Shown: positions 9,066 to 43,844 of the stretch, in pieces
Layout of the letters: each line of letters begins with the position of its first letter
Numbering within the stretch: the first letter of the stretch is position 1
Origin: Candidatus Poribacteria bacterium
Lineage (GTDB): Bacteria; Poribacteria; WGA-4E; WGA-3G
Direction of reading: 5' to 3'
Length of the DNA: 44,501 nucleotides
NCBI GenBank assembly: GCA_022822085.1
Contig: JAJECK010000115.1
Coordinates: 1-44,501, forward strand
Translations under genes and position numbers: made by a program
The notes under the pieces: model-generated
The model's input: only the letters and a program-made list of their open reading frames with translations
What the model was told of the DNA's origin: nothing
Database searches by the model: none

Positions 9066-9206
9066 TAGGACAGGACTTACGCATTCCCCCTTGATAAGGG
9101 GGTTAGGAGGTTAAATGGTGCGATATTTCAGTGTTTTTAGTCTTTTTACCCCCCTAAATCCCCTTATCAAGGGGACTTTAAGAGAAAATGCGTAAGTCCT
9201 GTAGGA
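9066..9206. mobile_element. Intact 131-bp MITE (family A, copy 1) with 5-bp target duplication
   Basis: The element spans 9071-9201. Its ends are 14-bp perfect inverted repeats (CAGGACTTACGCAT), flanked on both sides by the direct repeat TAGGA (9066-9070 and 9202-9206). Each half contains a hairpin with a 3-nt loop: CCCCCTT-GAT-AAGGGGG at 9086-9102 and CCCCTT-ATC-AAGGGG at 9160-9174. There is no coding capacity, so it would need a transposase supplied elsewhere. The right-hand target duplication supplies the AGGA of the ribosome site for the next gene. A diverged second copy lies at 30669-31049. Confidence 0.85.
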
Positions 9207-30559: not shown

Positions 30560-30692
30560 ACTTGACTCCTGGTGATATACAATAGACGTTCTATACAGAT
30601 GTTACGTTGATATGGTTCTGTCCTTTCTATAAATATAACGCCAGTTTGATAAAAGAATTCAATTTTGATAGGACAGACGCATTCCCCCTTGA

Positions 30693-30843
30693 ATGAAGAT
30701 AAACTTATTAATTGGGTCCTTTTTCTTCTGGGCGGGGGCAGTTGTCACTGCTGCTGGCAAGGCGGGGAATGACTAAATGTCATTCATACCGTTGATTTCT
30801 TCCTAACCTCGCCACATTACCGAAATTATTTTTTAATCTTCAT
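30693..30843 (+). mobile_element. Nested palindromic element B, copy 1 (151 bp)
   Basis: The element starts ATGAAGATAAACT and ends TTAATCTTCAT. It is flanked by A (30692) and A (30844), where the MITE copy at 9093-9095 has a single central A in the loop GAT of the CCCCTT/AAGGGG hairpin. An inner palindrome GAATGAC-TAAAT-GTCATTC lies at 30767-30785. It is non-coding. Confidence 0.75.
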
Positions 30844-30901
30844 ATAAGGGATAGGGGTTAGAAGTCGCTATTTCAGTGTTTAACCTCTAAGTCCCCCTTA
30901 T

Positions 30902-31015
30902 ATGACCATTAAGTTATTAATTCGGTCCTTTCCTATTCACATGAGGTGGGTGTTCCACCTGCTGGCGAGGTTTCCTAACCTCGCCACATTACCGATTTAT
31001 TTTCTTAATCTTCAT
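30902..31015 (+). mobile_element. Nested palindromic element B, copy 2 (114 bp)
   Basis: The element starts ATGACCATTAAGTT and ends TTAATCTTCAT, flanked by T (30901) and T (31016). The empty loop in the 9066 MITE is ATC, so the insertion duplicates the central T. It contains an AGGTGG/CCACCT hairpin and a GGCGAGGTT/AACCTCGCC hairpin (30964-30985), and lacks the inner insertion found in copies 1 and 3. It is non-coding. Confidence 0.75.
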
Positions 31016-31229
31016 TCAAGGGGACTTTAAGAGGAATGCATCCATCCTGCCTTATTATCAAACTCACGTTAAATATAGGTGGAATGGAATAGTAATTTGG
31101 GTAGGTTTTAGTCTGTAATTCATAAACCTCCGGCAGGGCGGAGTACCAATGCCGCTCTATACTGCTGAGGCTCTATGTTACTCACGCCTTATGTTTTAAA
31201 TACATTCCGCCGCAAATAAAGTTAAATAT

Positions 31230-35518: not shown

Positions 35519-35690
35519 ATATCGTCCCTAATGAAGATTAACTTATTAATTGGGTAAGTTTCCTACTAGGCGAGGGCAGTTGTACTCCTGCTAGCGAGGC
35601 GGGGAATGACTAAATGTCATTCATACCGTTGATTTCTTCCTAACCTCGCCACAGGACCAAAATTATTTTTTAATCTTCATACAGGACTAA
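35519..35690 (+). repeat. REP-like unit split by element B3
   Basis: GATATCGTCCCTA (35518-35530) and ACAGGACTAAGAG (35681-35693) rejoin to a copy of the REP-like unit at 12859-12881, with one mismatch in the hairpin arm. The unit is broken in the middle of its loop TAC by B3. The rest of the mlaE-mlaF gap (35425-35789) has no further coding frame or clear promoter. Confidence 0.65.
35531..35680 (+). mobile_element. Nested palindromic element B, copy 3 (150 bp)
   Basis: The element starts ATGAAGATTAACTT and ends TTAATCTTCAT, flanked by A (35530) and A (35681). The empty hairpin at 12862-12874 has the loop TAC, so the central A is duplicated. It shares the inner GAATGAC/GTCATTC palindrome (35604-35622) with copy 1. 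It separates mlaE from mlaF. It is non-coding. Confidence 0.75.
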
Positions 35691-43728: not shown

Positions 43729-43844
43729 ATGAAGATTAATTTATTAATTCGGTAATTTTTTATCCGTACGAGGCAGGTTTCGCTCCTCCGCTGGCGAGGT
43801 TTCCTAACCTCGCCACATTACCAAAATTATTTTTTAATCTTCAT
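43729..43844 (+). mobile_element. Nested palindromic element B, copy 4 (116 bp)
   Basis: The element starts ATGAAGATTAATTT and ends TTAATCTTCAT, flanked by G (43728) and G (43845). Removing it rejoins an 8-bp hairpin, GCACGTTT (43719-43726) with AAACGTGC (43847-43854), whose 3-base loop TGT has the duplicated G at its centre. It contains the GGCGAGGTT/AACCTCGCC hairpin (43793-43814). It occupies the gap after cysS; the remainder to 43994 has no coding frame. Confidence 0.75.

Follow-up and report, generated by a model that had tools for sequence, protein, structure and literature searches.

A non-coding repeat nested in hairpin tips of a Poribacteria genome, a probable MITE of an IS630-related insertion sequence

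The repeat B, a short, non-coding element of 110 to 151 bp, is very probably a MITE of an IS630-related insertion sequence (IS) whose transposase targets the dyad centers of hairpins largely regardless of stem sequence. B sits at the dyad center of a DNA hairpin, usually within a loop of three bases, the middle one of which is duplicated, so that X-Y-Z becomes X-Y-[ATGAAG...CTTCAT]-Y-Z. The host stem is kept and is lengthened by B, which is a hairpin too, giving a Russian-doll nesting of hairpins. The window analyzed here, a stretch of 44,501 nucleotides, lies on contig C28 of a 5.63-Mb draft genome (158 contigs), and it holds four such insertions, two of them in a single host repeat, A' (Table 1). 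The nearest named matches of the S6 gene of this genome, at up to 80% identity, were in Candidatus Poribacteria. No IS630 element aimed at hairpins was found in the open-licence literature searched.

About 180 copies of B were counted genome-wide, this and other counts from draft genomes being lower bounds. The element ends gave 360 matches versus 4 for a reversed control pattern, and the repeat is therefore not a product of chance. B has the properties of a MITE, being short, non-coding and present in many copies, with terminal inverted repeats (ATGAAGATTAA...TTAATCTTCAT) shared with a coding, IS630-type element. Rfam was searched and gave no match. The dinucleotide outside the GAAG of the ends was AT in approximately 90% and CC in approximately 8%, the latter nearly always as GTCC, and inside B, GGTAA and GGTCC alternated in the same manner. 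A hairpin that seems to be REP-like, D, was present in nearly every copy of B, and a further segment, C, was found inside D in long B and not in short B. Both inserts in A' are real, as the first-pass annotation had stated, but B itself is composite, with D in both inserts and C inside the D of the left one. Genomes of the genus differed in D, with 0 to 241 matches each, and also in B, which went undetected in some and had many copies in others, consistent with recent mobility. Another repeat, AACAACAATCCCCACAC...AATGTCCAGGTAATTGTGGTTTTTACTATAAT, also holds D, at times with the C insert of long B (C11:49350, C148:29168, C153:11622 and others), which suggests that D has been exchanged between repeat families.

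The positions of B were examined in a sample of 1.15 Mb of the same genome chosen by place, in which 22 of 37 full copies had at least five contiguous flank pairs starting exactly 4 bases from GAAG and CTTC. The extended set covered 1.46 Mb of stretches of this genome and nine other genomes, with 97 B copies in ten genomes; the 97 sites represent fewer than 97 events, since host repeats that already contained B may in some cases have been copied together with it. The rule of at least five contiguous host pairs, the first of them exactly 4 nt away from GAAG on one flank and from CTTC on the other, held for 73/97 copies (44/58 in the own genome and 29/39 in other species), and at these 73 sites the host stem was kept. 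Random positions satisfied it in 0.125% of cases, and there was almost no pairing off the symmetric diagonal of the 97 copies. The loop pattern was X-Y-[B]-Y-Z, with the central base Y duplicated at 63/74 sites against 22.8 expected. TA was present in the loop at 16 of the 74 sites and absent from the other 58. Duplication of a TA target was considered and rejected: the T-host sites agree with it on a single side, and sites in A', AAACT and GTAG hosts do not agree with it. Among 69 strong sites, nine looked like complete palindromes that had neither an odd loop nor a duplicated base, and several of these fit ordinary TA insertion.

The hosts were diverse, with at least 17 distinct stems. They included A', the AGTCCC-GTA-GGGAC, CAAACT/AGTTTG and GAATGCC/GGCATTC repeats, single hairpins, and GTAG-tagged REP-like hairpins (L184, L187, L196 and L199). 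In one genome (G005), B copies of 99 to 100% identity were found in three unrelated hairpins (L183, L196 and L209). Host stems were biased to CT or CC beside the loop, and sequence therefore plays some part in targeting.

Elements of the IS630/Tc1-mariner group are described as inserting exclusively at TA, where their transposases transfer the two 3' ends with a spacing of 2 bp (PMC2170065). For Mos1 the TA rule is explained by bending and base flipping, its target being bent by 147 degrees with flipped adenines (PMC5481204). In the mechanism proposed for B, the two 3' ends would attack immediately 5' of the middle loop base, one on each strand, the target being an extruded hairpin or a sharply bent palindrome; a hairpin tip would already offer bent, unpaired bases, and the stagger would be 1 nt, where IS630/mariner has 2 nt at TA. 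The attack may be on extruded cruciforms. That an IS630/mariner-type transposase has swapped TA recognition for DNA shape, placing its ends one nucleotide apart in the unpaired tips of hairpins that have extruded, is quite possible, if short of probable.

The main alternative to attack on extruded hairpins is that the transposase recognizes double-stranded palindromes as symmetric, bendable DNA, the ability to form a hairpin being incidental, a reading that we place somewhat below even. A stagger of 1 bp agrees with symmetry around a single base pair, perfect palindromes served as targets in some cases, and, besides the bent Mos1 target, mariner/Tc1 elements favor palindromic AT-rich sites (PMC5481204). 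However, GC-rich stems (GTCCC, CGTTT and CCCTT) were used as well as AT-rich ones. Moreover, hairpins with 4-nt loops, the commonest short-loop class and one that includes the abundant D, yielded no identified B host, although perfect stems in the sample numbered 195 with 4-nt loops versus 152 with 3-nt loops.

By seeking longer elements with B ends in hairpin tips, an element of 1,240 bp was found (C14:43851-45090), which sits in the hairpin GGGGAATGCC TA[..]AT GGCATTG. It encodes a transposase of 384 aa, matching the IS630 model NF033545 at 181.7 bits (cutoff 100) and PF13358 (DDE_3), and the left end of B equals its end over 28 nt (ATGAAGATTAATTTATTAATTCGGTAAT). Other species hold homologues that share these ends, and D191, D273 and E334, invariant in five homologues, are assigned by motif as the putative DDE catalytic residues. 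Full hairpins were present at the junctions of three IS copies, from the own genome, G015 and G010, with stems of 6, 8 and 6 bp, respectively. Judged by sequence, this element is the likely parent of B, and we infer that a transposase of this type may move B. The putative parent has the family assignment and DDE residues of IS630/Tc1-mariner but does not show TA insertion with TA duplication, and it is therefore classed as IS630-related with noncanonical targeting rather than as a canonical member. The own genome holds one intact transposase copy; other IS630 fragments in it, sought as a TA control, had no clear inverted repeats, and a search of solved structures by sequence gave no match. No such copy was detected in G005, a metagenome-assembled genome (94% complete) rich in near-identical B. 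G010, a one-contig assembly of the same genus, holds several IS630-type transposase copies, with no B detected at an E value of 1e-6, so that the putative parent occurs there apart from its MITE.

Some junctions were chimeric. At least six B copies in the own genome were flanked by halves of two different host hairpins (C117:40181, C102:46783, C50:12352, C22:135381, C99:48274 and C117:8622). IS copies in G010 (L222, L226 and L229) likewise had halves of two different host hairpins on their flanks, and G010 copies other than the one with a full hairpin had half a hairpin on one side. Since G010 is a single contig, such junctions are not just assembly errors. Pairs of half-hairpins from two hosts are not explained by simple insertion, and they suggest that copies have recombined with one another or that the process was one-ended.

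The presence of a REP-like hairpin in B raises a second alternative, namely, that B is moved by the RAYT/HUH transposase of the genome, whose gene at C138:18708 (NF047646, 112.5 bits, cutoff 80) lies within a cluster of D-type hairpins. D lies inside nearly every B and resembles the REPs at this gene, and it is probably the REP of the C138 RAYT. However, the outer ends of B are not REPs: the GTAG/CGTC tag of REPs and REPINs is absent from the hairpin foot, where B has ATGAAG (AT, rarely CC), and the match is instead to the IS630-type element, which shows hairpin-tip insertion without having D. HUH transposition is also not expected to duplicate a base. A RAYT as the mobilizer of B is therefore improbable. 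The RAYT gene encodes 159 aa, and the D-type hairpins densely clustered around it are preceded by GTAG (G000:C138:17208-20501; L131:1050-2025).

Compared with known systems, B as a derivative of an IS630-related element resembles IS630/Tc1-mariner elements and their MITEs (ISY100, RUP with IS630-Spn1, and NEMIS/Correia) in transposase family and DDE residues, in short shared terminal inverted repeats, and in high-copy, non-coding derivatives of 100 to 150 bp (PMC2170065, PMC2229807). Whereas the known members target and duplicate TA, B enters the hairpin center and duplicates one base, mostly without TA in the loop. IS1272, of the IS1182 family, also targets inverted repeats of varied sequence, with structure over sequence (PMC5678879). 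IS1272 has a transposase of another family, however, and deletes the target stem-loop, and no such removal was seen for B, which keeps the stem and duplicates the loop center alone, an outcome close to the hypothetical "pathway c" of the IS1272 authors (PMC5678879). Like B, the REP-targeting elements IS1397, ISKpn1, IS621, ISPsy8 and ISRm22 enter short repetitive palindromes (PMC1525189). They use particular REP families and are listed under IS3, IS110, IS4, IS256 and IS5 rather than IS630; B does insert into REP palindromes, yet other hairpins serve too, among its 17 or more stems. REP dimers (GTAG-15 of A. variabilis, GTAG-23 of T. roseum and CGTC-1 of H. neapolitanus) are palindromes nested in palindromes, as B is, but no transposase, triloop rule or base duplication is reported for them in PMC3733652.

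The targeting of B would explain in a simple way how palindromes come to be deeply nested in bacterial genomes. The small dispersed repeats of Nostoc are hairpin repeats of 21 to 27 nt that are nested in one another, like B, and they are not known to have a DDE parent. A member of the IS630/mariner group that enters hairpin tips and duplicates one base would be a test of how the TA rule can change. Cruciform extrusion in living bacteria, an old question, would become testable through insertion maps; if the proposal is true, the insertions are a natural record of palindromes extruding in living cells, and a structure-directed DNA integrase is on offer.

Table 1. Features of the window (positions in the window)
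Feature	Position	Strand	Basis or remark
Intact A MITE	9071..9202	+	Young relative of the host; ~30 close copies
Host A' including both inserts	30637..31070	.	19 other complete copies in genome (13 intact, 6 interrupted)
Left host hairpin, 5' half CCCCCTT-GA (stem plus loop bases X, Y)	30684..30692	+	Partner AT-AAGGG
Left B, long form, 151 bp, ATGAAGATAAAC...TTAATCTTCAT	30693..30843	+	Full-length nhmmer match
Hairpin D within left B (GGCAAGG...CCTCGCC), interrupted by C	30756..30813	+	Alignment, D family
Segment C, a hairpin (CGGGGAATGACTAAATGTCATTCATACCGTTGATTTC), within the D of left B	30763..30799	+	In long B, absent from short B
Left host hairpin, 3' half AT-AAGGG	30844..30850	+	Loop GAT to GA[B]AT
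Right host hairpin, 5' half CCCCCTT-AT	30893..30901	+	Sequence
Right B, short form, 114 bp, ATGACCATTAAG...TTAATCTTCAT	30902..31015	+	nhmmer match
D hairpin GGCGAGGTTTCCTAACCTCGCC of right B	30964..30985	+	241 D matches in genome
Right host hairpin, 3' half TC-AAGGGG	31016..31023	+	Loop ATC to AT[B]TC
Third B, T-type hairpin CGTCCC TA[B]AC AGGAC	35531..35680	+	One host-stem mismatch
Fourth B, hairpin GCACGTTT TG[B]GT AAACGTGC, 8-bp stem	43729..43844	+	B match and flank pairing

The doubly filled A' of the window had been described in the first-pass annotation as a MITE with B at equivalent loop positions of both hairpins, and this was borne out in place and in lengths: the inserts fall in the GAT and ATC triloops of the two host arms, with one base duplicated. 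When B was taken out in silico, both host hairpins re-formed (left, CCCCCTT-GA/AT-AAGGG; right, CCCCTT-AT/TC-AAGGGG). The triloops of intact arms were GAT in 16/35 and ATC in 15/35 (together 31/35), and each insertion in the window is therefore at the loop center with one base duplicated. Both inserts are in direct orientation, although the host arms that hold them are inverted, and they are 74% identical over shared columns, while the nearest relatives of the left copy are at C148:35193 (94.5%) and L003 (93.8%) and those of the right copy at C54:36202 and L009 (94.5%). This combination indicates two independent insertions, as the annotation had favored over duplication. Duplication of a B-containing arm, or an assembly error, might be suspected in a draft of 158 contigs with short repeats; the former was rejected on the orientation and divergence of the inserts, the host segments run continuously and in order across the double insert (q1-56, 56-113 and 113-176), and we consider either origin very unlikely.

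A census of the family, which the annotation had proposed, was run on A'. Among 20 complete copies, 13 had no B, four had B in the left arm only (C138, C58, C99 and C104:75513, the last two complex), two in the right arm only (C11:1978 and C104:98048), and one, the copy in the window, in both. The result that the annotation had named as refuting its reading, the same two inserts in every copy, was thus not obtained. The annotation had not noted that nearly every B copy lies in a triloop of some host hairpin, or that there is a candidate autonomous parent. Intact copies elsewhere in the genome were 81 to 93% identical. With occupancies of 5/20 on the left and 3/20 on the right, approximately 0.75 double copies are expected by chance, so the doubly filled A' requires no special cause. 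A filled and an empty state were also found in a duplicated stretch with flanks 97.8% identical over 493 bp, where C103 has two empty AGTCCCGTAGGGAC hairpins and C105 has B in each (AGTCCCGT[ATGAAG...CTTCAT]TAGGGAC). Although some hosts often carry B, the AAACT/AGTTT repeat accounting for 34 of the 74 clear sites, the reading of B and the host arms as a single composite repeat, to which the inserts belonged from the start, is contradicted by the empty A' copies and the C103/C105 pair, and the six copies with B in one arm only, the many empty T and A hairpins, and the same B in unrelated hosts leave it next to no credit.

One part of the annotation was corrected. The host had been said to keep the ends and core of the MITE at 9071-9201, but it is A', whose outer inverted ends are AACGCCAGTTTGATAA/TTATCAAACTCACGTT and which has an extra outer shell, AACGCCAGTTTGATAAAAGAATTC...TTATCAAACTCACGTT. 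AAATAT occurs on both sides of A' (30631-30636 and 31071-31076) and is a probable target duplication. A' is an older relative of the A MITE at 9071, which is a related element rather than the host in uninterrupted form. The young A MITE has the ends CAGGACTTACGC, and none of its approximately 30 close copies was found to hold B. It shows apparent 5-bp target duplications, e.g., ATTAA, AAATT and AATGT (L034, L039, L040 and L041), and therefore belongs to a transposase system other than that of B.
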